IMG/VR virus record: IMGVR_UViG_3300047557_002186
Coordinates: 1 to 51,574 of that record
Strand: one strand, 5' to 3'
Length of the DNA: 51,574 nt
Source: a virus
The notes beneath the pieces were generated by a model, which was given only the letters and a program-made list of their open reading frames with translations, made no database searches and had not been told where the DNA came from. Of this stretch, positions 16,323 to 51,574 are shown piece after piece; position 1 is the first letter of the stretch; the number at the start of each line of letters is the position of its first letter. Position numbers and translations under genes: made by a program.

Positions 16323-16488
16323 TGTTATTAAACAGTTAGTAAGACCATCAGGGAAATGGTGGAGTTACTATGTTCCCCGCACCCTCAGCGGGGATATGAG
16401 AGACGTCATTTATACTCCCTAGAGGTCTCGGTTTACGGGGAGTTTAACAGTGTTACAGAATGTTTAAGTTTCGTAACATTTGTTTACC
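16323..16488 (-). other. psbA 5' leader
   Basis: About 165 untranslated bases. They hold a GC hairpin (CCCCGC / GCGGGG, 16375-16393 with a 7-base loop) and a TATAAAT-like box near 16410 that could be a second start. No gene is seen. Leader folding may control D1 translation (inference). Confidence 0.5.
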
Positions 16489-18782: not shown

Positions 18783-18977
18783 TTTATTTTTCAATTTAAA
18801 AGCAGCATCACCAAGAAAAGAACCTACAGCAAGCACAAGTACTTTTGCATATGCATCTCTACTTGTGCTTTCTAGTTCTACTTGTCCTTCTGTGCGAATG
18901 GCAACAGACTCCAAAGCAGAAATCATAAATGCTGCCCAGATGATAATAAACAATCTAACAATATTAAAATATATCAT
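18759..18977 (-). CDS. Small two-span membrane protein
   Basis: A 72-residue protein with hydrophobic segments at about 3-22 (YFNIVRLFIIIWAAFMISAL) and 46-60 (VLVLAVGSFLGDAAF), ending in a Lys/Arg-rich tail. It converges on and overlaps the plus-strand gene by 24 bases. Function unknown. Confidence 0.65.
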   Translation of the reverse strand: MIYFNIVRLFIIIWAAFMISALESVAIRTEGQVELESTSRDAYAKVLVLAVGSFLGDAAFKLKNKSKRQASR

Positions 18978-19734: not shown

Positions 19735-20190
19735 TTATTTATTAGAAGCAAACCTACCACTTTCGTCTCTTAGAATATTCATACCTTTTCTTTTCTTATT
19801 TCTTTCTGCTAAATCTGGTCTTTTTCTACCAGTATTAGCAGCACTAACTTTTGCCTTTGCTTCTTCACTAATGGGATGCCCCCTCCTACTCCTATTCAGT
19901 TCAGCAAGATGAGGATTTTTTTGAACTCCTTTCTTTCCTTTATTCCAAGGAACTCTACCTTTTGGAGCACCACCTCTTTTTCCTGCTTCACTTAATACTT
20001 GTTGTATTACCTCTTCTTTTTTTATAATTCCAGATAGTGCTTCATAAGCAATCCTATCATATTCATTACCATATTCTTCATAGAGTTTTTTATGTGCCTC
20101 TGCGTGTTCTTCAACACTTAACTCTATAAGATTGCTGGGGTCGTCTGTGCCTCCCATATGTTTAGGCACAATATGGTGAATGTGTTTCAT
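19735..20190 (-). CDS. HNH homing endonuclease
   Basis: A 151-residue protein: HNH core HHIVPKHMGGTDDPSNLIEL with SVEEHAEAHKKLYEEYGN, then NUMOD3-like DNA-binding repeats (VPWNKGKKG, NRSRRGHPISEEAKAKVSAA, NTGRKRPDLAE). A free-standing homing endonuclease gene. It is preceded by a hairpin-enclosed late promoter (20197-20268) and followed after 19 bases by the MDAQEL gene. Confidence 0.9.
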   Translation of the reverse strand: MKHIHHIVPKHMGGTDDPSNLIELSVEEHAEAHKKLYEEYGNEYDRIAYEALSGIIKKEEVIQQVLSEAGKRGGAPKGRVPWNKGKKGVQKNPHLAELNRSRRGHPISEEAKAKVSAANTGRKRPDLAERNKKRKGMNILRDESGRFASNK

Positions 20191-20196
20191 TCTACT

Positions 20197-20268
20197 CTGT
20201 AAGTCGCAATACTATTTATACAAGAAAAGGTGCCGAAGCACCCTTTCCACCTATAATGCGACTTACAG
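20197..20268 (-). promoter_or_regulatory. Inverted repeat enclosing a late promoter, before HNH gene
   Basis: CTGTAAGTCGCA and its exact 12-bp complement (20257-20268 and 20197-20208) flank a terminator and the late octamer TATAAATA (20213-20220). Readthrough RNA can pair next to the HNH ATG; late RNA starting inside the loop lacks the far arm. An ATACTATTTAT direct repeat lies beside each arm. Confidence 0.65.
20224..20247 (-). terminator. Intrinsic terminator after the nuclease gene
   Basis: AAGGGTGC TTCG GCACCTTTTC on the minus strand: a stable tetraloop hairpin ending in Ts, some 30 bases after the SNase stop. Confidence 0.75.
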
Positions 20269-20278
20269 GTGATACTAT

Positions 20279-20728
20279 TTATTCTACCAGAGTTCCTCTT
20301 TGTCGTCTAATTTCTTTTAATTCTTCAAAGTTTTTAACTTTGGTGCCTCCCGAGTAAGTCCAAGCAAATCCCTCATCAATCATTTGTTGATTGACTGATT
20401 TCTTTTTATTGACTGCGGATACTTCCTTATCTCCAATAAACAAATGTCCCAGAATTCTTCCGTACTTTTCGGTAGAATCTGGGAGTTCTGTTTTAACAAT
20501 AATATCTTCCTGCCCTTCTAACTTTTTCTTGAGCCACTCTTTAACCTCAAGACCAAGTTTCTTTTCATTTGCATCAGTTGTTCTGCTCTCTGGGGTATCG
20601 ACACCAGCAAGACGAATTCGCTTAGTAAGGGAGATATCAAACCCAAGGTCAATAGCAGCATCAATAGTATCGCCATCTACAACCTTAAGAACTGACTTGA
20701 TTCTATAAATGTACGGATCCTTATCCAT
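20279..20728 (-). CDS. Staphylococcal nuclease-like (SNase) protein
   Basis: A 149-residue thermonuclease-fold protein without a signal peptide. Motifs: VVDGDTIDAAID (calcium Asp), RIRLAGVDTPES (catalytic Arg and Glu) and EKYGRILGHL (second catalytic Arg), then NQQMIDEGFAWTYSGG. Cleaves DNA or RNA in a calcium-dependent way in known members; may help degrade host nucleic acid for nucleotide reuse (inference). Overlaps the upstream gene by one base. Confidence 0.9.
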   Translation of the reverse strand: MDKDPYIYRIKSVLKVVDGDTIDAAIDLGFDISLTKRIRLAGVDTPESRTTDANEKKLGLEVKEWLKKKLEGQEDIIVKTELPDSTEKYGRILGHLFIGDKEVSAVNKKKSVNQQMIDEGFAWTYSGGTKVKNFEELKEIRRQRGTLVE

Positions 20729-39939: not shown

Positions 39940-39948
39940 TTATAAGAT

Positions 39949-40047
39949 TCAGGCTCGCCACCAATTCTTTGACTGGAAATTGGAAACCAGGCGGAGAAAG
40001 AATTCCCCATCCGCACCACTTGCTCTTGTGAGAAGCAAGAAACTCAT
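39949..40047 (-). CDS. Possible 32-aa peptide
   Basis: MSFLLLTRASGADGEFFLRL then VSNFQSKNWWRA. No clear ribosome site. It is the only open frame in the 39.94-40.08 kb stretch, which otherwise holds no gene, and is followed by a terminator. Weak support. Confidence 0.3.
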   Translation of the reverse strand: MSFLLLTRASGADGEFFLRLVSNFQSKNWWRA

Positions 40048-40741: not shown

Positions 40742-40776
40742 AGATATGGATTATTTTATATTATTTATCTATATCT
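40742..40776 (-). promoter_or_regulatory. Late octamer within a short inverted repeat before HNH gene
   Basis: AGATAT and ATATCT (6 bp; 40771-40776 and 40742-40747) flank the late-type GATAAATA (40762-40769), and the near arm abuts the ATG. A weaker copy of the layout at 20.2 and 50.6 kb. Confidence 0.45.
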
Positions 40777-41312: not shown

Positions 41313-41385
41313 TGCTCCTTGCGTGGATCGAACACGCCTCAGGCGAATTATGAGTTCGCTGCATTCACCAGATTGCTAAAGGAGC
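41313..41385 (-). tRNA. tRNA with CAT anticodon (Met, or Ile2 if modified)
   Basis: Full cloverleaf: acceptor GCTCCTT / AAGGAGC, anticodon loop CTCATAA, T-arm GCGTG TTCGATC CACGC. Elongator Met and Ile2 both have CAT; sequence alone does not settle it. Confidence 0.85.
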
Positions 41386-41389
41386 AAGG

Positions 41390-41461
41390 TAGGAGTACTG
41401 GGAGTTGAACCCAGACTACCCCGTTATAAGCAGGGCGCTCTAACCATTAAGCTATACTCCC
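41390..41461 (-). tRNA. tRNA-Ile(TAT)
   Basis: Acceptor GGGAGTA / TACTCCT, anticodon loop CTTATAA (TAT), T-loop TTCAACT. Four bases from the CAT tRNA and sharing its promoter. TAT reads ATA, a codon more used by AT-rich phages. Confidence 0.85.
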
Positions 41462-41475
41462 ATAAGGGTGGGTCT

Positions 41476-41504
41476 ATTGTAGAGGACCCAAAACTCTATG
41501 TCAA
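41476..41504 (-). promoter_or_regulatory. Host-type promoter for tRNA-Ile and tRNA-CAT
   Basis: TTGACA (41504-41499), 17 bp, TACAAT (41481-41476), about 15 bases before tRNA-Ile; the -35 box overlaps the 3' end of the Phd-like gene. Confidence 0.75.
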
Positions 41505-41731
41505 GAACCTTCTTCGTGGTCGGTGTGTATTCGTATCACATCGTCATCCACATTAGATTCTACTGCAAACTTTATGGTTTCTTTGTATGGAACAATCACC
41601 GCGTTTCTTTCTCCGTCAGTAATAATAAATGATTCACCATTTTCTACTCTTTGTATTAGATTATCAAAATCTGCTTGAAACTCTTCGACTGTAAACTTTT
41701 GGAGATCTGAAAGTTCTGGATACATTTTCAT
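41501..41731 (-). CDS. Phd/YefM-like antitoxin, without visible toxin
   Basis: A 76-residue protein: LQKFTVEEFQADFDNLIQRV followed by ENGESFIITDGERNAVIVPY, the Phd/YefM fold (beta-alpha DNA-binding dimer) seen in type II toxin-antitoxin systems, with an acidic C-terminal tail that would bind a toxin. No toxin gene lies adjacent; neighbours are tRNAs. It may neutralise host toxins or act as a repressor (inference). Confidence 0.7.
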   Translation of the reverse strand: MKMYPELSDLQKFTVEEFQADFDNLIQRVENGESFIITDGERNAVIVPYKETIKFAVESNVDDDVIRIHTDHEEGS

Positions 41732-41749
41732 AAAGTGAAGTTTTATGAG

Positions 41750-41825
41750 TCCGGATATTCAGATTTGAACTGAAATTATTCCTGCTCCCAAAGCAGGTGC
41801 CATGACCAAGTTAGGCGATATCCGG
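41750..41825 (-). tRNA. tRNA-Pro(TGG)
   Basis: Acceptor CCGGATA / TATCCGG, anticodon loop TTTGGGA (TGG), T-loop TTCAAAT; 76 bases. Its promoter lies in the preceding small gene. Confidence 0.85.
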
Positions 41826-41942
41826 TTATTTGTTTCTATGTATAAACATAATACCAGCAAATGGTACGATTGTCAATCCACATCCACATAGAAAAAGAAA
41901 GAAAGGACTTGCTGATAATGTTTCAACAAGATGAAAAATCAT
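41826..41942 (-). CDS. 38-aa membrane peptide
   Basis: MIFHLVETLSASPFFLFLCG then CGLTIVPFAGIMFIHRNK: one or two short spans. GGAGG lies upstream and the start overlaps the previous stop (ATGA); the stop directly abuts tRNA-Pro. The tRNA-Pro promoter is inside it. Confidence 0.6.
   Translation of the reverse strand: MIFHLVETLSASPFFLFLCGCGLTIVPFAGIMFIHRNK
41848..41876 (-). promoter_or_regulatory. Host-type promoter for tRNA-Pro
   Basis: TTGACA (41876-41871), 17 bp, TATTAT (41853-41848), within the 38-residue gene. Confidence 0.75.
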
Positions 41943-42166
41943 CTTCCCCTCCAGTTCTTATATTCATAATACATGAATTGGTCCACTTCGTCAAGCCCCT
42001 GTAAAGGAGCTTGAACATCCCAGTACGACCATTCGATACAGAACTGCTTAATATGTATATCATTAGCAGCAGTCTTTACACCATACATTCTTGAAAAGGC
42101 AGACATTGCAAACCAATATCTTTGCTTAATGTGCGGTTCCATTTCCCTTATAGTCTTCGGAGTCAT
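41939..42166 (-). CDS. Conserved small protein, function unknown
   Basis: A 75-residue protein from ATG 42166: MTPKTIREMEPHIKQRYWFA, FSRMYGVKTAANDI, QFCIEWSYWDVQAPLQG. Rich in aromatic residues. Overlaps the 39-residue gene by 41 bases. Confidence 0.65.
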   Translation of the reverse strand: MTPKTIREMEPHIKQRYWFAMSAFSRMYGVKTAANDIHIKQFCIEWSYWDVQAPLQGLDEVDQFMYYEYKNWRGR

Positions 42167-42245
42167 AGTATCCGCCTCGTGTTCCGAAATACAGTGTAGC
42201 AAGTACAAAAGGAATAGCAACAAAAATAAGTGCTTTACCTAACAT
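42126..42245 (-). CDS. 39-aa membrane peptide after gnd
   Basis: MLGKALIFVAIPFVLATLYF then GTRGGYYDSEDYKGNGTAH: one span and a Gly/Tyr-rich tail. The start overlaps the gnd stop by 11 bases. This composition recurs in cyanophages after gnd (recalled). Function unknown. Confidence 0.6.
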   Translation of the reverse strand: MLGKALIFVAIPFVLATLYFGTRGGYYDSEDYKGNGTAH

Positions 42246-43269
42246 GATGACCTCCAAACATATAACGCATACCATTCAGGATTTTTGCTCCGAATGATCC
42301 AAGATTGCGTGAGTTAAATCTTTCAAATAGTGCCGTAGTAATAACAGGAGCGGGAACCCCCAAGTCCACAGCGGCAGAAACAGTCCAACGACCCTCACCG
42401 CTGTCGGATACGCCTCCAGAGAAGCGTTTAAGGCTGCCATCCCTGCGTAGCACATCAGCAGTAAGATCAAGTAACCAACTGCCAACCACGCTACCGCGAC
42501 GCCATAACTCAGCAACTTCAGCAACATCAATGTCATAACAATAACTTTCTGGATCTGCCATGGGGGCAACTTCTGCGTCTCCTTCTTTAACATATTGTGC
42601 CCCGTTATTTGCGTTCTTTAAGATATTGAATCCTTCGGCATATGCCTGCATAATACCATACTCAATACCATTATGAACCATCTTTACAAAATGACCAGCG
42701 CCTGGACCACCACAATGCAACCAACCAAACTCAGCAGAAGTTACGTCCGAGTCAAATTGAGTCCTTGGGGCAGCGTTGATTCCTGGGGCAAGGGCATCAA
42801 AAATGCTCGCACAAGTGGCGACCGCAGTATTTCCGCCACCAACCATAAGACAGTATCCACGATCCAAACCATAAACACCGCCGCTAGTACCACAATCAAT
42901 ATATTGGATACCAAGTTTTGCCAGACGCTCTGCTCTTTTCCGACTGTCTTTAAAATTGCTATTGCCATGATCAATAATAATATCTCCCTCACTACAATAT
43001 CGTAGTAACTCATTAATTGTCTCCTCTACAGTTTCGGCAGGGACAACCATCTGAAAAATACCTGGTTGTGGTCTACCATTTTTGTTTTGTTTAACTACTT
43101 TAACAAGGCTTTCGATAGTAGTTGTAATTCCATTTACATAACCTTTTTCAAATGCTTCCTGTGCTTTATCGTAATTTCTACGATAACCCCAAACTTCTAT
43201 ACCCGATTTCATCATACGGCGAGACATACCTTCGCCCATTCTACCTAATCCAATTAATCCTACTTTCAT
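42235..43269 (-). CDS. gnd: 6-phosphogluconate dehydrogenase
   Basis: A 344-residue enzyme of the short class: MKVGLIGLGRMGEGMSRRMM (cofactor-binding), IIDHGNSNFKDSRKRA, YIDCGTSGGVYGLDRGYCLM and GPGAGHFVKMVHNGIEYGIM (catalytic Lys and substrate site). Decarboxylates 6-phosphogluconate to ribulose-5-phosphate with NAD(P)H formation. In cyanophages it feeds pentose and reductant to nucleotide synthesis. Start at 43269; ATGA overlap with the peptide upstream. Confidence 0.95.
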   Translation of the reverse strand: MKVGLIGLGRMGEGMSRRMMKSGIEVWGYRRNYDKAQEAFEKGYVNGITTTIESLVKVVKQNKNGRPQPGIFQMVVPAETVEETINELLRYCSEGDIIIDHGNSNFKDSRKRAERLAKLGIQYIDCGTSGGVYGLDRGYCLMVGGGNTAVATCASIFDALAPGINAAPRTQFDSDVTSAEFGWLHCGGPGAGHFVKMVHNGIEYGIMQAYAEGFNILKNANNGAQYVKEGDAEVAPMADPESYCYDIDVAEVAELWRRGSVVGSWLLDLTADVLRRDGSLKRFSGGVSDSGEGRWTVSAAVDLGVPAPVITTALFERFNSRNLGSFGAKILNGMRYMFGGHHVR

Positions 43270-43370
43270 AAAACCTCTGGATATGCGTGTGTAATTCCCC
43301 AATGTATAAAAAGTCCAATAGAGGAAAAAAGAAGAATCGCTGATATTACTGTCCTAATCATCTTCTTCAT
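43266..43370 (-). CDS. 34-aa membrane peptide upstream of gnd
   Basis: MKKMIRTVISAILLFSSIGL then FIHWGITHAYPEVL: one span. GAGG lies 4 bases before the ATG, and the stop overlaps the gnd start (ATGA). Two 17-residue frames (43354-43407, 43414-43467) lie just upstream and are too short to judge. Confidence 0.5.
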   Translation of the reverse strand: MKKMIRTVISAILLFSSIGLFIHWGITHAYPEVL

Positions 43371-43466
43371 CCTCATAAGTAGATGGTTCTTCAAAGAGTT
43401 CTTCCATTTTTTGTTAAAGAACTATTCGATTTAATTTTTGTAAATCTTCTTCTGTAATTGTTGCCA

Positions 43467-43670
43467 TTAGTTCAAAGTAATCTTTAGAAATGGAAGTAAA
43501 GGTGGAATAACCCCAATTAGTCTCAGCAGTCCCTCAGCAAATAAAGCAAGAACCACCCAACCGACGCACATACTAATGATAGAAGCATTGCGGTTGTGTC
43601 TTCGGATAGCAGCATCGATCATCTCCTGTACTTCAGAACGTGTAATAAACTCTTCCTGTTCATACATCAT
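43467..43670 (-). CDS. Small single-span membrane protein
   Basis: A 67-residue protein: YEQEEFITRSEVQEMIDAAI is a helical cytoplasmic part, then ISMCVGWVVLALFAEGLLRL is the span, with a second hydrophobic end (IPPLLPFLKITL). Starts inside the stop of the upstream gene (AAATGATG). Confidence 0.7.
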   Translation of the reverse strand: MMYEQEEFITRSEVQEMIDAAIRRHNRNASIISMCVGWVVLALFAEGLLRLIGVIPPLLPFLKITLN

Positions 43671-43816
43671 TTTTCATCTCCAAGAAATTTTGCGAGAGGA
43701 TCTCTGCGAGTCTTTACAATTTCAACTGCTCTTTTGTAAAACATATTGTCTGTATTACCAGACTGTTCAAATGTCTCCTTGATCTTCACCCAATTTAGGT
43801 AGGTGTGCTGATCCAT
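43667..43816 (-). CDS. 49-aa conserved-type protein
   Basis: MDQHTYLNWVKIKETFEQSG, NTDNMFYKRAVEIVKTRRDP, LAKFLGDEK. Helical and soluble; I recall related cyanophage proteins of this size. First gene of a short unit with membrane peptide genes. Function unknown. Confidence 0.7.
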   Translation of the reverse strand: MDQHTYLNWVKIKETFEQSGNTDNMFYKRAVEIVKTRRDPLAKFLGDEK

Positions 43817-43826
43817 AGGTTTTTTC

Positions 43827-43854
43827 CCGTGATACTACTATATACTAATCACGG
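43827..43854 (-). promoter_or_regulatory. Operator-like palindrome near a weak promoter
   Basis: CCGTGAT and ATCACGG (7 bp, 14 bases apart) enclose TA-rich sequence with a possible TAGTAT -10 box; TTGACG is 16 bp upstream. Possible repressor site. Confidence 0.35.
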
Positions 43855-43928
43855 AAGTTCTATCGTCAACATTTGTGTTCATTTGGTAACAGTGTTGAAG
43901 AAATTATTAAATTTGTAATTTTTCTTAA

Positions 43929-44014
43929 AGGAAGATCAGGGATTCGAACCCTGGAACGCTATTAACGTTAATAGTTTTCAAGACTATCGCCATCAACCAC
44001 TCGGCCAATCTTCC
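43929..44014 (-). tRNA. tRNA-Ser(TGA)
   Basis: Type II tRNA with a long variable arm (AACGTTAATAGCGTT): acceptor GGAAGAT / ATCTTCC, anticodon loop CTTGAAA (TGA), T-loop TTCGAAT. 86 bases. Confidence 0.88.
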
Positions 44015-44026
44015 GTTGTTGGAGGT

Positions 44027-44284
44027 TCAACGAACCTCGAAATCCAAACGACGAACTTTACGTTGTCTACGTGCTTCTTGCCAAGCAATATCTTGAGAAG
44101 TCAACACGTTTGTTTTTGAACTTTCTTTTATTGAGTTTAACATAACAATACGTGATAAGTCAACTGCTGAGACTTTATCTCCGCGAATCGTTGCCATATT
44201 AGGACATCCACAAGTTACTGTTCTTGAATGATGACCTTCCAATTCCTTTCCACAGGATCTACATCTTATTTTTAGGTTTTCCAT
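44027..44284 (-). CDS. Small zinc-ribbon-like protein
   Basis: An 85-residue protein: IRCRSCGKELEGHHSRTVTC then GCPN holds two Cys pairs (CxxC and CGC) with His that may bind zinc, and the C-terminus is basic (ARRQRKVRRLDFEVR). Possibly nucleic-acid binding. Lies between tRNA-Ser and the Dps-like gene. Confidence 0.7.
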   Translation of the reverse strand: MENLKIRCRSCGKELEGHHSRTVTCGCPNMATIRGDKVSAVDLSRIVMLNSIKESSKTNVLTSQDIAWQEARRQRKVRRLDFEVR

Positions 44285-44292
44285 AATTCAAT

Positions 44293-44832
44293 CTATTCTT
44301 CGATACTTTCTTCTATTGTATTTTCAGCATACTCAATTTCATTAAGTTCGGGTTCAATTTCATCAATTACGAAAGTCTCTTCAACTTTCTTTGATGTATT
44401 ATCTGAAAATGATCTTAACATCCATACGAATTTACCATGCGATTCCATCAAGTCTTGAACCAAATTAGCAGTTGCGTATGACTTTTGTTTTTCTGCTTCT
44501 TCAGATATATTGGACATTATATCACAAAAATCAATATTTGATTGAAGAAGATCGGAAATCATAGACTCCGCATTTGCAGAACTTGATGCCTCATCAATTT
44601 TTGATACCTCAAGAACTCTTTTCAGACTACTCAAAGGTTTTACATTTAAGTATCTCATATGTTCCGAAAGTCTATCAATCTCTTCAAACATAGTTTCATA
44701 TTGACCACCAAAAAGAGTATGTAGTTGTTGAAAATCTTTTCCAACAACATTCCAATGATAGACCCAAGTTTTATGAAATAACACAAAAAGTGATGCCTGA
44801 GCATCACTTAAGAGTTTAAATAGTGTTTCCAT
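44293..44832 (-). CDS. dps: Dps-like ferritin (DNA-protection / iron-storage)
   Basis: A 179-residue four-helix protein. LFHKTWVYHWNVVGKDFQQL, HTLFGGQYETMFEEIDRLSE and HMRYLN match the Dps ferroxidase signature: His, His, then Asp and Glu in the next helix. Dps shells oxidise iron with peroxide and shield DNA. A C-terminal acidic tail (IEPELNEIEYAENTIEES) is unusual for DNA-binding Dps. AATAAATA lies upstream. Start at 44832; a longer frame passes through the tRNA. Confidence 0.82.
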   Translation of the reverse strand: METLFKLLSDAQASLFVLFHKTWVYHWNVVGKDFQQLHTLFGGQYETMFEEIDRLSEHMRYLNVKPLSSLKRVLEVSKIDEASSSANAESMISDLLQSNIDFCDIMSNISEEAEKQKSYATANLVQDLMESHGKFVWMLRSFSDNTSKKVEETFVIDEIEPELNEIEYAENTIEESIEE

Positions 44833-44860
44833 TATACTCTTTTTATTCTTATTTATTAAG

Positions 44861-44932
44861 TGGGCGATGACGGATTCGAACCGCCGACCTACTCCGTGTA
44901 AAGGAGGCACTCTACCGCTGAGTTAATCGCCC
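44861..44932 (-). tRNA. tRNA-Val(TAC)
   Basis: Acceptor GGGCGAT / ATCGCCC, anticodon loop TTTACAC (TAC), T-loop TTCGAAT, 72 bases. Confidence 0.88.
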
Positions 44933-45119
44933 GAAAGGTGACGAGTGCCCATCACCAGCGCCAGACACTTGACGCGATTTTCGCTGCATTAGAGGGCAGT
45001 GAATAAGAGAAAACACCAAACCTTATTTCTCCTGTTCTCAGGAGCTTACAAATGGAAAGGGAGAAAACCTCCAAAGTTTGTCCAGCATTTTCAATTTGAA
45101 AGAACCAAAATCCTTCCAA
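44933..45119 (-). other. Gene-free stretch between tRNA-Val and tRNA-Asn
   Basis: About 187 bases with no plausible gene. A hairpin CTCCTG TTCT CAGGAG (near 45029-45044) may be an RNA-processing signal. No good promoter was seen. Confidence 0.4.
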
Positions 45120-45192
45120 CTCCCCCACCTGGACTCGAACCAGGAACCCCAGAGTTAACAGCTCCGTGCTCTGCCAATTGAGCTATAAGGGA
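45120..45192 (-). tRNA. tRNA-Asn(GTT)
   Basis: Acceptor TCCCTTA / TGGGGGA (with wobble pairs), anticodon loop CTGTTAA (GTT), T-loop TTCGAGT, 73 bases. Confidence 0.85.
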
Positions 45193-45198
45193 ATGTGG

Positions 45199-45269
45199 TG
45201 GCGTACCAGGGAATTGAACCCTGTCCTGGGGCTTATGAGACCCCCGTGCTACCGTTACACCCGTCCGCG
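45199..45269 (-). tRNA. tRNA-Met-like (CAT), imperfect acceptor stem
   Basis: Anticodon loop CTCATAA in a GGGGT/GCCCC stem, T-arm CAGGG TTCAATT CCCTG. The acceptor CGCGGAC / GTACGCC has two mismatches (first pair C-C, fifth G-A). The first-pair mismatch recalls initiator tRNA. Second CAT tRNA of the window. Confidence 0.65.
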
Positions 45270-45284
45270 ATGATGTATTAAGTT

Positions 45285-45356
45285 ACCTCTGTCTGGGAAT
45301 CGAACCCAGTCTCCATGTGTGTTGTCCACCTGTCCTTACCAATAGACTACCAGAGG
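45285..45356 (-). pseudogene. tRNA-like gene with degenerate anticodon arm
   Basis: Acceptor CCTCTGG / ACAGAGG (six of seven pairs), D-arm GTC/GAC and T-arm CTGGG TTCGATT CCCAG are good. The anticodon stem AGGTG/CACAT has a G-A mismatch and the loop GACAACA lacks the universal U33, so no anticodon can be assigned safely (CAA in the standard register). Confidence 0.55.
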
Positions 45357-45358
45357 AG

Positions 45359-45430
45359 AGCGGGGTATCGGAATCGAACCGACGACATCTAACTTGGAAG
45401 GATAGCGTTCTACCGCTGAACTAACCCCGC
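45359..45430 (-). tRNA. tRNA-Gly(TCC)
   Basis: Acceptor GCGGGGT / ACCCCGC, anticodon loop CTTCCAA (TCC), T-loop TTCGATT, 72 bases, directly after a promoter. Confidence 0.9.
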
Positions 45431-45440
45431 TTGTATGACA

Positions 45441-45469
45441 ATCATAAAGTATATATCTCAGATTGTCAA
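45441..45469 (-). promoter_or_regulatory. Host-type promoter for tRNA-Gly and following tRNAs
   Basis: TTGACA (45469-45464), 17 bp, TATGAT (45446-45441) on the minus strand, immediately downstream of tRNA-Leu. Confidence 0.7.
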
Positions 45470-45470
45470 G

Positions 45471-45552
45471 TGTCGATGAAAGGACTTGAACCTTCACAGA
45501 TTAATCTACTGGAACCTAAACCCAGCGCGTCTACCAATTCCGCCACATCGAC
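45471..45552 (-). tRNA. tRNA-Leu(TAG)
   Basis: Type II tRNA: acceptor GTCGATG / CATCGAC, anticodon loop TTTAGGT (TAG), T-loop TTCAAGT; 82 bases. Confidence 0.87.
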
Positions 45553-45614
45553 TAGATGGACTACGTATGATATACCTCAAGGATATAACAGTGACGTAGC
45601 CTCTATCTTTTTAT

Positions 45615-45643
45615 ATAGTAACAGACTCATAAAAATCTGTCAA
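45615..45643 (-). promoter_or_regulatory. Host-type promoter upstream of tRNA-Leu
   Basis: TTGACA (45643-45638), 17 bp, TACTAT (45620-45615), immediately downstream of tRNA-Arg(ACG). Confidence 0.7.
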
Positions 45644-45644
45644 G

Positions 45645-45717
45645 CGTCCTTTGAGAGATTCGAACTCCCGCACATAGGTTCGTAGCCTACTGCTCTATTC
45701 CACTGAGCTAAAAGGAC
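45645..45717 (-). tRNA. tRNA-Arg(ACG)
   Basis: Acceptor GTCCTTT / AAAGGAC, anticodon loop CTACGAA (ACG), T-loop TTCGAAT, 73 bases. Confidence 0.88.
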
Positions 45718-45721
45718 TTGG

Positions 45722-45793
45722 CGAAGGGTGAGGGATTTGAACCCACAACTTCCAGGTTAAAAGCCCGTTACTCTACCGTTGAGTTACAGACCC
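45722..45793 (-). pseudogene. tRNA-Lys-like (TTT) gene with unpaired acceptor
   Basis: Anticodon arm ACGGG CTTTTAA CCTGG (TTT, with mismatch at the stem base) and T-loop TTCAAAT are recognisable, but the 5' end GGGTCTG cannot pair with the 3' end ACCCTTC in register. Looks like a decayed or recombinant tRNA. Confidence 0.55.
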
Positions 45794-45799
45794 ATTAAA

Positions 45800-46003
45800 G
45801 GTTTAGATTGTCAAGGTGCTGGTGGTCTCTCAACCACCCTTTTAGAATACCACAGAACCCAGTGAGGGGAAAGTGGTTTGTGCCAGTTCCGAAAGTGGTC
45901 TTGGCAGTTTGGGGTCTCGTTCCCCCACCGACTCATGTAATATACCACCATTTTGGTCTCTGTGGGGAGATTGGTGGACACTTAGGAAACTGTCCCAAGC
46001 AAC
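45800..46003 (-). other. Unexplained intergenic stretch with repeats and hairpin
   Basis: No gene of good quality is seen. A GGTGGT / ACCACC hairpin (near 45819-45838) and two diverged copies of a 20-base word (AAAGTGGTTTGTGCCAGTT and AAAGTGGTCTTGGCAGTTT, near 45870 and 45892) are present. Base composition is richer in G and C than most intergenic DNA here. Confidence 0.45.
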
Positions 46004-46036
46004 AAAAAAGGGGAGGAAACTTTTGGTTTCTCTCCC
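46004..46036 (-). terminator. Strong intrinsic terminator
   Basis: GGGGAG-GAAAC / GTTTC-CTCCCC stem with short loop then six Ts on the minus strand. It ends the small unit at 46062-46192. Confidence 0.85.
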
Positions 46037-46061
46037 CTGTCTTTGCTTTATGGATTACATC

Positions 46062-46163
46062 TTACATATGTCTTTCCATATCAGCAAACAGGGGAGTACC
46101 CTCAATATGCCAATCACGGCAATCAAGGTTACTAATCTGTTTGATGGTAATTTGGAAAGACAT
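46062..46163 (-). CDS. 33-aa peptide in an isolated late unit
   Basis: MSFQITIKQISNLDCRDWHI then EGTPLFADMERHM. It lies between a late promoter (46185-46192) and a terminator (46004-46036), the only open frame of the unit, so a small protein is plausible; a non-coding RNA is the alternative. No strong ribosome site. Confidence 0.45.
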   Translation of the reverse strand: MSFQITIKQISNLDCRDWHIEGTPLFADMERHM

Positions 46164-46184
46164 TGTTTTCGACCTAAGTGTTTT

Positions 46185-46192
46185 TATTTATA
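46185..46192 (-). promoter_or_regulatory. Late-type octamer TATAAATA
   Basis: On the minus strand, 22 bases before the ATG of the 33-residue frame. Confidence 0.65.
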
Positions 46193-46214
46193 AGACTTTT
46201 ATTTAAAAGTCAAG

Positions 46215-46288
46215 CGCCTCAGGTAGGATTCGAACCTACGGCTAACCGCTTAGAAGGCGGATACTCTAGTCCACTGAGTTACTGAGGC
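46215..46288 (-). tRNA. tRNA-Arg(TCT)
   Basis: Acceptor GCCTCAG / CTGAGGC, anticodon loop CTTCTAA (TCT), T-loop TTCGAAT, 74 bases; reads AGA, common in AT-rich phage genes. Confidence 0.9.
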
Positions 46289-46374
46289 AAGAGACCTCTC
46301 TGTTTGTGCTTCTATGAGAGGCATGAGAGGGGTGAGACTTATATGAGGTTTGGACCCTCACCGCTCATATGATT

Positions 46375-49446: not shown

Positions 49447-49596
49447 TTAGTCGCTTGTGTCTAACCATTCTTTACAGTAGTCATAATCACCAAACATAAA
49501 CTCATCACACTCTGCTGCCTCTCTATATGCGTTCAGGATTTCCTGTTCGCACCATTCGTCATAGTTTGAATCCTGAGAAAGTATTTTTGGTAACAT
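49447..49596 (-). CDS. 49-aa acidic protein
   Basis: MLPKILSQDSNYDEWCEQEI, LNAYREAAECDEFMFGDYDY, CKEWLDTSD. Three Cys and many acidic residues. Starts within the stop of the upstream gene (TAATG). Function unknown. Confidence 0.65.
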   Translation of the reverse strand: MLPKILSQDSNYDEWCEQEILNAYREAAECDEFMFGDYDYCKEWLDTSD

Positions 49597-50009
49597 TAGA
49601 TTACATTAAATCCTGGTTCTAATAATTTATATTCCATTCCATCATAAACAACTCCAGAGTAATAATCTGCAGTATCCAACACAGAGAACATATTATATTT
49701 TCTTCCATCGTCAAATGGTGTTATATCTATCAAGTCTCCATAAGTATTCTTCCAGATACTATGATATATCGCACACCCATAGGTTTCATCATCAACATCA
49801 GTGATTAAATAATATCCACTTATCTTCTCTCCGCCATAAGTATTCACATAATGATTTACATTATTATGGCAGTTTGCGTCGGCACATAAAGGTTTAGAAA
49901 CTACGGGAACTTTCAATAGAGTAAGAGAGAACTTACAATACTTTTGGAGTTTAACTACACATTCATCTTCTGGTAAGGATATTCTAAACTTTCTCAATAC
50001 TCCATCCAT
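49596..50009 (-). CDS. Conserved phage protein, function unknown
   Basis: A 137-residue protein from ATG 50009: LPEDECVVKLQKYCKFSLTL, CADANCHNNVNHYVNTYGGE and GCAIYHSIWKNTYGDLIDIT. The conserved NCHxNV...YGGE...HSIW...DLIDITPF pattern is found in phage and bacterial proteins of unknown role. Its start lies within the end of the GIY-YIG homing gene, so that gene was inserted just before it. Confidence 0.7.
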   Translation of the reverse strand: MDGVLRKFRISLPEDECVVKLQKYCKFSLTLLKVPVVSKPLCADANCHNNVNHYVNTYGGEKISGYYLITDVDDETYGCAIYHSIWKNTYGDLIDITPFDDGRKYNMFSVLDTADYYSGVVYDGMEYKLLEPGFNVI

Positions 50010-50598
50010 TTTTTCTTGGACCTCTTCTATCATACTTAATTGCGGCACTCATAGTAGCATATGAAATATTTTGAGACTTACAAAACTCCTTCAATCCCCC
50101 AATAATAATATACTCTTTATTTTCAGGAGAAATAATCTTCCAGGTTTTAGAATTTGGATTATCCTTTCCAAATTGAGGAGTTCTGTTTTGACTTATCTTA
50201 TTTCTTGTCTCTTGTGATAATTTAACACCATATCTTGGATTATTCTTACCAGCAACCTTTTCACTTATTCTTTTCTTTGCTTCCTCACTATGGTTTCTTC
50301 CACCAAATCCTTTAGTTTTTTGTCCTCCAGGTTTTCCTTCTCCACCTAAATTCTGGTTGAGCAAAACTCCACCATCACACTCTCTTTTCCAGAGTGCTAT
50401 ATGTTTTATCTCAAGTTCTATTGCTTCTTCTTTAGTTAATCCAGATTTTACGATATATCTTCTTTCTCTTGGTGGCAGTAAGTTTGCTCCATTACTTCTT
50501 AAATGTTTTGCATTTATTCTTCTTGGTTTTCCATAACCAACATAAAAGGGAGAACTAAAGTCCTCCCTTAAGTAATAGTAAAGAATATAATTATTCAT
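49984..50598 (-). CDS. GIY-YIG homing endonuclease
   Basis: A 204-residue free-standing homing endonuclease. YILYYYLREDFSSPFYVGYG is the GIY-YIG motif, EEAIELEIKHIALWKRECDG the catalytic Glu region, then NUMOD3 repeats (FGGRNHSEEAKKRISEKVAG, NNPRYGVKLSQETRNKISQN) and a NUMOD1-like end (LKEFCKSQNISYATMSAAIK). Inserted between nrdB and the gene at 49596. Confidence 0.92.
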   Translation of the reverse strand: MNNYILYYYLREDFSSPFYVGYGKPRRINAKHLRSNGANLLPPRERRYIVKSGLTKEEAIELEIKHIALWKRECDGGVLLNQNLGGEGKPGGQKTKGFGGRNHSEEAKKRISEKVAGKNNPRYGVKLSQETRNKISQNRTPQFGKDNPNSKTWKIISPENKEYIIIGGLKEFCKSQNISYATMSAAIKYDRRGPRKNGWSIEKV

Positions 50599-50599
50599 T

Positions 50600-50658
50600 T
50601 TAAGACTGAACTTACCTATTATTATTTATATAATACACTATTTCAGTCTTAAGGTCAA
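50600..50658 (-). promoter_or_regulatory. Dual promoter inside an inverted repeat before the GIY-YIG gene
   Basis: TTAAGACTGAA / TTCAGTCTTAA (11 bp; 50642-50652 and 50600-50610) enclose late TATAAATA (50623-50630) and a host-type -10 TATTAT (50630-50635), whose -35 TTGACC (50653-50658) is 17 bp upstream. The near arm abuts the ATG. Confidence 0.7.
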
Positions 50659-51574
50659 TCAAAGTTTAAATCCACTAAATGTGTCCTTTTTAACATCCTG
50701 TTTAATACCACCAACCACATAAGATTGTACTTGTGTTTGTTGTGGGGCAACCTGGAGACCTTTAGAGGAAATCCAGTGCTGAGTCCAAGGAAGTGGATTG
50801 TTGTTTGCTGAAATATCATATTGGGGTTTTAGTCCAATTGCTTTAAGTCTTCTATTTGCTACCCATTCAACATATTGCTGAAGAAGTTTATCATTCAGTC
50901 CAATCATACTTCCATCTTTGAACAGATAATCTGCCCATTTCTTTTCCTCATTCACAGCACGATCAAACATTTTATAAGTCCACTCTTCTTCTTCCTTCAT
51001 AATCTTCTGCATTTCAGGATCATCACCGTCCCTCCACTTATTCAGAATGTTCTGAGTAAGTGCTAAGTGTTGATTTTCGTCTCTTGCGATGAGAGAGATG
51101 ATCTTAGCGGATCCTTCCATAAGCTTAAGTTCACCAAAGGCGAAACTACAAGCAAAACTAACGTAGAAGCGAATACCTTCAAGAATATTAACGTTTGCGA
51201 CTGCTCTATAGAGTTTTCGTTTAACGTCATTGATTGTTTCCTTTGCGTATGAAACTCCCTCAAGATTATGCATCCAGGCATCGGATACACCATACTGTTG
51301 TGCTGATTGAATAAAGTCATCGTAAGACTCTGTAACGCTCTTAGCACGTTCCAGAATACGTTCATCACCAATAATAGTGTCAAATACCTCAGAAGGATCT
51401 GAATAGACATTTTTAATGATATAAGTGTATGAACGACTATGGATCATCTCCATAAATCCCCACACTTCCATACATGCTTCCAATTCAGGAAGTGAGCAAT
51501 ATGGAATAAATGCCATACCAGGACCACGACCCTGCACAGAATCAAGCATAATCTGATACTTCAAATTAGAAGTA
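50659..51574 (-). CDS. nrdB: Ribonucleotide reductase small subunit (class I), N-terminus outside window
   Basis: The last 305 residues of NrdB; the frame is open to the window end. Di-iron and radical residues are visible: EACMEVWGFMEMIHSRSYTY (Glu, His and the radical Tyr), GIRFYVSFACSF (Glu just before) and ISLIARDENQHLALTQ (Glu and His). The C-terminal segment that docks the large subunit is present (KKDTFSGFKL). It makes dNTPs with NrdA, reduced by glutaredoxin. Confidence 0.97.
   Translation of the reverse strand, partial: TSNLKYQIMLDSVQGRGPGMAFIPYCSLPELEACMEVWGFMEMIHSRSYTYIIKNVYSDPSEVFDTIIGDERILERAKSVTESYDDFIQSAQQYGVSDAWMHNLEGVSYAKETINDVKRKLYRAVANVNILEGIRFYVSFACSFAFGELKLMEGSAKIISLIARDENQHLALTQNILNKWRDGDDPEMQKIMKEEEEWTYKMFDRAVNEEKKWADYLFKDGSMIGLNDKLLQQYVEWVANRRLKAIGLKPQYDISANNNPLPWTQHWISSKGLQVAPQQTQVQSYVVGGIKQDVKKDTFSGFKL

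Follow-up and report, generated by a model that had tools for sequence, protein, structure and literature searches.

A candidate translational lock and a candidate antisense-RNA cassette before homing-type endonuclease genes of a T4-like cyanophage

The endonuclease gene behind nrdB and its leader

The window analysed here is a 51,574-nucleotide stretch of DNA from a marine-type cyanobacterial virus (IMG/VR record IMGVR_UViG_3300047557_002186), taken at its full length. The 3' part of nrdB, encoding the small subunit of ribonucleotide reductase, runs off the window on the minus strand (50659-51573; Pfam PF00268, E-value: 2e-44). Directly behind it on the same strand lies a homing-type endonuclease gene (49984-50598) encoding a protein of 204 amino acids. 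This protein has a NUMOD3 domain (E-value: 9e-13) and a GIY-YIG-like N-terminus and is similar to the homing endonucleases of phrog_314 (E-value: 1e-16). A first-pass annotation, made from the sequence alone, had called it a GIY-YIG homing gene. The homing part of that label agrees with the two matches, but the Pfam GIY-YIG model (PF01541) is unmatched at E<=1 in the window, as it is in 26 relatives, so "GIY-YIG-like" is the wording preferred here. It rests on the motif YILYYY..FYVGYG, a predicted strand-strand-strand-helix core and weak Foldseek matches of a low-confidence AF2 model (pLDDT 58) to the UPF0213 proteins 1zg2 and 1ywl, which we take to be of the GIY-YIG type.

Downstream of the gene lies a remnant duplicate of the nrdB 3' end (NVTKNTFSGFKL followed by a stop; 49559-49597, minus strand), and a diverged remnant of this kind occurs, at variable distance, in 47 of the 73 relatives with enough downstream DNA. 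When the locus is compared by BLAST with DSL-LC03, which has no such gene, the alignment stops a few bases beyond the nrdB stop codon. The remnant and this break were probably left by homing into the 3' end of nrdB, in which the gene and the leader described below would have moved together. No close relative of the nrdB-adjacent gene was found among public phage records. Within the endonuclease reading frame, near its start, is an in-frame, terminator-like hairpin (50546-50569, minus strand; AAGGGAG..CTCCCTT, AAGGGAGGACTTTAGTTCTCCCTT, with TTATG next) that is kept in most relatives and lost in two of them (L052 and L076); it may be kept by constraint on the coding sequence or may attenuate read-through RNA that is not translated.

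About 60 nt separate the nrdB stop codon (50661-50659) from the start of the endonuclease gene at 50598. On the minus strand this spacer reads CCTTAAGACTGAA-ATAGTGTATTATATAAATAATAATAGGTAAG-TTCAGTCTTAAA-ATG. It contains a perfect 11-bp inverted repeat, with the far (5') arm TTAAGACTGAA at 50642-50652 and the near (3') arm TTCAGTCTTAA at 50600-50610, which covers positions -2 to -12 relative to the start codon. The 31-nt, AT-rich loop holds the whole of a late-promoter octamer, TATAAATA (50623-50630). The first-pass annotation had described such a repeat abutting the ATG, and its description is accurate except that the near arm is set off from the ATG (50598-50596) by a single A. It had also noted a host-type promoter overlapping the octamer; this is a sigma-70-type match, TTGACC-17-TATTAT (50630-50658), with 10 of 12 consensus bases, 17-nt spacing and a -35 element that precedes the far arm. 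By analogy with T4, the late start is predicted at 50617, the sixth base past the octamer, and starts from either promoter would fall within the loop.

RNA with both arms has a folding energy of -20.2 kcal/mol (z -2.6), and an RNA beginning at the predicted late start would be nearly unstructured (-2.4 kcal/mol). The window has five exact TATAAATA octamers, each of them on the minus strand, and those inside stems of at least 11 bp (11-12 bp) are the two that precede the endonuclease genes starting at 50598 and 20190. The near arm does not contain a Shine-Dalgarno sequence, and no Shine-Dalgarno tetramer is found at -17 to -4 in any of 43 distinct leaders of the gene, compared with 191 of 655 other genes longer than 150 amino acids. 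An AGGT in the leader was considered as a distant Shine-Dalgarno sequence and dropped because it is not conserved among relatives. Positions 50600-50658 have no match among 4227 Rfam models.

As the nrdB stop codon and the hairpin are only a few nucleotides apart, the hairpin might be nothing but the ordinary 3' end structure of nrdB, a terminator or an mRNA stabiliser. We find this scarcely credible: a T-run is absent, the loop is long and AT-rich, and a terminator scan at the element returned nothing. Furthermore, the element travels with the endonuclease, and the alignment with DSL-LC03 ends just past nrdB.

Conservation, enrichment and a proposed mechanism

In silico, the hairpin layout is shared by 80 IMG/VR relatives in which the gene lies behind nrdB, and the octamer is exact in 41 of the 43 distinct leaders. 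Across 30 leaders used for covariation analysis, a 17-pair stem has 90.8% of its cells paired. Changes on both sides are seen at 8 of the 17 pairs (14 cells), a level reached by none of 500 shuffles, although the relatives are phylogenetically linked and the independent events must be fewer than these counts suggest. Sliding the stem register by 1-3 columns reduces pairing to 21-52%. A collection-wide scan for the stem AAGACTGAA..TTCAGTCTT gave other matches, but TATAAATA is in the loop solely before this gene family; the exact repeats of the stem elsewhere were set aside, as all of them lack the octamer in the loop.

Coincidence is the least probable explanation of the repeat, and we regard its likelihood as negligible. 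The region is AT-rich and stems of six to seven bases around octamers are also found before ordinary genes, but a stem of at least 11 bp arises in only 1 of 5000 dinucleotide shuffles of the spacer (66 nt; P about 0.0002). A chance origin is refuted by the covariation, and both the conservation and the enrichment described below argue against it.

Another explanation is that the inverted repeat acts as a DNA operator, bound by the endonuclease itself or by another repressor, and has no role as an RNA structure. I-TevI acts at an operator to repress the late promoter of its own gene (PMC2988022), and the repeat studied here brackets a promoter and has an arm sequence that is invariant or strongly conserved in part. 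Compensatory changes that alter the sequence and keep the pairing, stems that vary from 11 to about 17 bp among relatives and unrelated arm sequences at the same place before other homing genes make this very improbable as the sole explanation. The invariant part of the arms does allow for an additional DNA-level role.

Less remote, though still unlikely, is the idea that the host-type promoter mainly drives the gene, which would be expressed early or in the middle of infection, while the hairpin only silences read-through from nrdB. The quality of the promoter match is in its favour, as is the presence of TTGACN-17-TATTAT in about 60% of the distinct leaders, and for cyanomyoviruses lacking MotA an overlap of early and late promoters has been proposed (PMC2984593). 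Two of the leaders with this promoter, L060 (upstream of 585) and L064 (upstream of 1655), keep the stem while their octamers are altered (TATGAATA and TATAGATA, respectively). On the other hand, a deeper clade (leaders of the L012, L045, L067 and L069 type) does not have this -35 element and has the exact octamer, and the -10 element can be mimicked by a TATAAATA promoter. The sigma-70-type match would also give an RNA that starts in the loop, possibly early in infection, and this, together with the two leaders lacking the exact octamer, makes "late only" uncertain. The layout of hairpin and late promoter that the first-pass annotation proposed is present, but its use may not be exclusively late.

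Enrichment before homing genes was assessed with 1891 ORFs, taken from eight cyanophage records that are largely complete and from portions of two others. Homing genes were labelled by layout-blind Pfam searches (GIY-YIG, HNH, NUMOD3, HNH_3 and Endonuclease_7). The layout was defined as an octamer within 70 nt and a helix whose far arm precedes the predicted start and whose near arm falls in -25 to +6. This detector recovers the published T4 cases I-TevI (8 bp), I-TevII (8 bp), segB (11 bp) and gene e (7 bp). At a stack energy of -12 or better, the layout precedes 18 of 66 homing-type ORFs and 14 of 1825 others (odds ratio 48, p 2e-19), in a sample that includes related records, some homologous genes and approximate gene starts. 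It is therefore far from equally common before the two classes, the comparison that the first-pass annotation had put forward as decisive. When homologues of the labelled genes are included, the counts are 23 of 76 versus 9 of 1815 (odds ratio 87), and when only octamer-bearing genes are compared they are 23 of 44 versus 9 of 69 (p 9e-6). On visual inspection, several of the "other" ORFs with the layout resemble endonucleases, among them MTSQSPRIYIYKIIFEEVPYYYYGVHKE and MTREYKKHPEIKVGDKFYHLEVISNP, the latter with CxxC pairs; the true odds ratio is therefore probably higher. Many homing-type genes in these phages are without the layout. Where it is present, the arm sequences are unrelated and their position is the same, in line with the earlier remark that one layout recurs with different arms before unrelated endonucleases. 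Across T4-like cyanophages, the layout marks homing-type genes with strong statistical support and independently of sequence, and it can serve as an aid to annotation, having flagged several endonuclease-like genes that were missed by the Pfam labels.

A weaker 6-bp version had been reported before a third HNH gene of the window (40740-40354, minus strand). It is present at 40742-40776 (AGATAT/ATATCT around GATAAATA, 40769-40762), and in four relatives the pairing around GATAAATA extends to 9-11 bp. Among other leaders, that of a homing-type HNH relative (L108, upstream of 8001) has a TATAAATA that ends 5 nt before the ATG, such that the predicted late mRNA would be leaderless. The leader of another HNH relative, found behind a tRNA-like sequence (L115, upstream of 7651; also L116-L119), has a hairpin around TATAAATA that sequesters a true Shine-Dalgarno sequence, AGGAGG, and so comes nearer to the T4 segB layout. 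Elsewhere in the window, Rfam matches on the minus strand are a wcaG RNA (39947-40047), a PhotoRC-II RNA (16360-16455) and an abiF RNA (46294-46330). A cluster of 11 tRNAs extends from 41313 to 46288, and a large imperfect palindrome with directly abutting 23-nt arms (78% complementary) is located at 18828-18873.

We propose, with a probability of roughly 0.8, that 50600-50658 acts as a lock on translation, in cis and of the T4 I-TevI/SegB/MobE type, for the freestanding GIY-YIG-like homing endonuclease gene that is inserted behind nrdB. The lock would operate in the following manner. Read-through RNA of the nrdB operon, in this phage presumably an earlier-expressed unit, has both arms and would fold into the 11-bp hairpin. 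The near arm would block the ribosome-binding stretch as far as the AUG, and the endonuclease would not be made. The promoter in the loop (the late octamer TATAAATA, possibly aided by the overlapping sigma-70-type promoter) would start an RNA past the far arm, and the short, unstructured leader of this RNA would permit translation without a Shine-Dalgarno sequence. The start sites, the timing and the effect on translation are those that we infer from this arrangement. Since the near arm does not contain a Shine-Dalgarno sequence, the lock would be a variant of the T4 scheme and not a plain member of it. The layout has already been described for T4-like phages (PMC2988022), so the idea is not new, and the principle of the lock is known from T4; its form without a Shine-Dalgarno sequence on a cyanophage homing gene appears to be new. 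A literature search, which was not exhaustive, found no reports of such locks in cyanophages. Why phage genomes retain freestanding homing genes and are not harmed by them is an old question, for which T4 has given a handful of cases.

A two-promoter cassette before the HNH gene at 20190

The second endonuclease gene with a long stem around its octamer (19735-20190, minus strand) encodes an HNH/NUMOD3 homing-type protein of 151 amino acids. This protein has the conserved domain PF01844 (HNH; E-value: 8e-5) and NUMOD3 and is similar to the homing endonucleases of phrog_655 (E-value: 8e-16). The first-pass annotation had ascribed the same design to the leaders of both genes. A hairpin and a late promoter do precede each of them, but the leader at 20190 has in addition an upstream late-promoter motif and an intrinsic-terminator-like hairpin. 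In order on the minus strand, it consists of the upstream motif AATAAATA (20276-20283), whose predicted start at 20270 is the A of ACCTG in P1; P1, a small hairpin (CACCT...AGGTG, 20248-20271) that begins about five bases after this octamer and whose loop holds the far arm CTGTAAGTCGCA (20268-20257); P2, an intrinsic-terminator-like hairpin between the arms (GGTGCTTCGGCACC plus TTTTCTT, 20222-20242) that is below the threshold of a generic terminator scan; the octamer TATAAATA of the HNH gene (20213-20220), whose predicted start at 20207 falls at the very beginning of the near arm; and the near arm TGCGACTTACAG (20197-20208), which is complementary to the P1 loop. The P1 loop is thus antisense to the leader of the HNH gene. 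Rfam has no match at 20190-20290 (4227 models), and cassette leaders in L321 and L325 have none at E<=1.

This two-promoter leader (20191-20283, minus strand) is common to many cyanophage homing genes of several families. Two pattern scans, which used the promoter, the P1 stem and the second octamer and left out the arms and the terminator, identified at least 165 distinct cassettes. When cassettes are detected without the upstream promoter, most have a TAAATA that sets the predicted start at the first purine of P1. Among the 165 cassettes listed, 135 have arm complementarity of at least 8, compared with 68 of 825 mismatched pairs; the near arm starts 2-6 (mostly 3-5) bases past the octamer, and about 125 have a terminator with a T-run. 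An ORF accompanies 152 of the cassettes listed, and 145 of these ORFs belong to a single BLAST-linked cluster of GIY-YIG-like and HNH genes. As MAFFT shifts the variable arms, cassettes were compared by the duplex energies of cognate and non-cognate pairs in place of formal pair counts. The cognate duplex of loop and leader has a median energy of -16.4 kcal/mol versus -6.5 kcal/mol for mismatched pairs, and 160 of the 165 cassettes listed have a cognate duplex of -12 kcal/mol or better.

The arms differ between cassette genes. In S-SRM01 and in record G001, strong pairing of each loop is found solely with its own leader; in a third record with two cassettes (G010), one loop also pairs with the other leader (-12.4 kcal/mol). 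The differing arms and the own-leader-only pairing in two of the three phage records tested fit a set of pairs that do not cross-react. A classic H-type pseudoknot was set aside, as the 0-1 nt junction would be too short for 9-13 bp, and an antisense or alternating-structure reading fits better.

The organization of the cassette at 20190, with its own promoter, defined start, terminator and antisense loop, resembles by sequence that of a type I antitoxin. It predicts a terminated antisense RNA of roughly 50 nt, and an economical reading of the cassette would be that it provides both this dedicated small RNA and a cis lock on the read-through RNA. More broadly, we lean towards the view that cyanophage homing endonucleases of several families (GIY-YIG-like, HNH and EndoVII-type), including the HNH protein at 20190, are each controlled by a dedicated antisense RNA with its own late promoter. 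Such an RNA would be made up of a small hairpin and a downstream intrinsic terminator, and the hairpin loop would be complementary to the beginning of the endonuclease mRNA. The leader at 50598, where both the upstream octamer and the terminator are missing, would then be a stripped-down, cis-only form. No description of two-promoter cassette control of homing endonucleases was found in the literature searched. If the proposal is correct, the cassette represents a widespread small-RNA control of homing endonucleases, and it is directly testable in the cultured phages S-SRM01, S-CREM2 and MA01.

Comparison with known systems

In T4 I-TevI, I-TevII, I-TevIII and segB and in Aeh1 mobE, a hairpin covers the ribosome-binding site on early and middle RNA, and the late promoter is so placed that its RNA does not include the far arm (PMC2988022, fig. 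5; PMC3014915). The 50598 gene is similar to these in that it has a hairpin over its initiation region and an octamer placed so that late RNA would lack the far arm; it also has the orientation of nrdB, the gene directly upstream, which may be expressed earlier. It differs in that no Shine-Dalgarno sequence is sequestered, the octamer is wholly within the 31-nt loop and is overlapped by a sigma-70-type promoter, and the gene is freestanding behind nrdB in a T4-like cyanophage. The leader hairpins of T4 gene e and soc (PMC3014915) follow the same early-silent, late-open logic; these are functional phage genes with a Shine-Dalgarno sequence, whereas the gene studied here encodes an endonuclease. 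With regard to late transcription in cyanophages, the late-promoter motif of S-PM2 is NATAAATA, and homologues of gp55, gp33 and gp45 are present in cyanomyoviruses (PMC2984593).

The cassette at 20190 has two further counterparts. Like the CfrI antisense RNA of S-PM2 (PMC2984593), its predicted RNA is tied to a cyanophage homing endonuclease gene. CfrI is about 225 nt long, is encoded on the opposite strand and links psbA and the gene, whereas the RNA of the cassette would be about 50 nt long, come from the same strand and pair via a hairpin loop. In type I toxin-antitoxin systems, the antitoxin RNA is encoded nearby and is separately promoted. The cassette likewise appears to specify a small RNA with its own promoter and terminator and a loop complementary to the 5' leader in the mRNA of a potentially harmful gene. 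Unlike in those systems, the target would be a homing endonuclease, the promoters are predicted phage late promoters in tandem, and read-through from the upstream promoter would also give a lock in cis.
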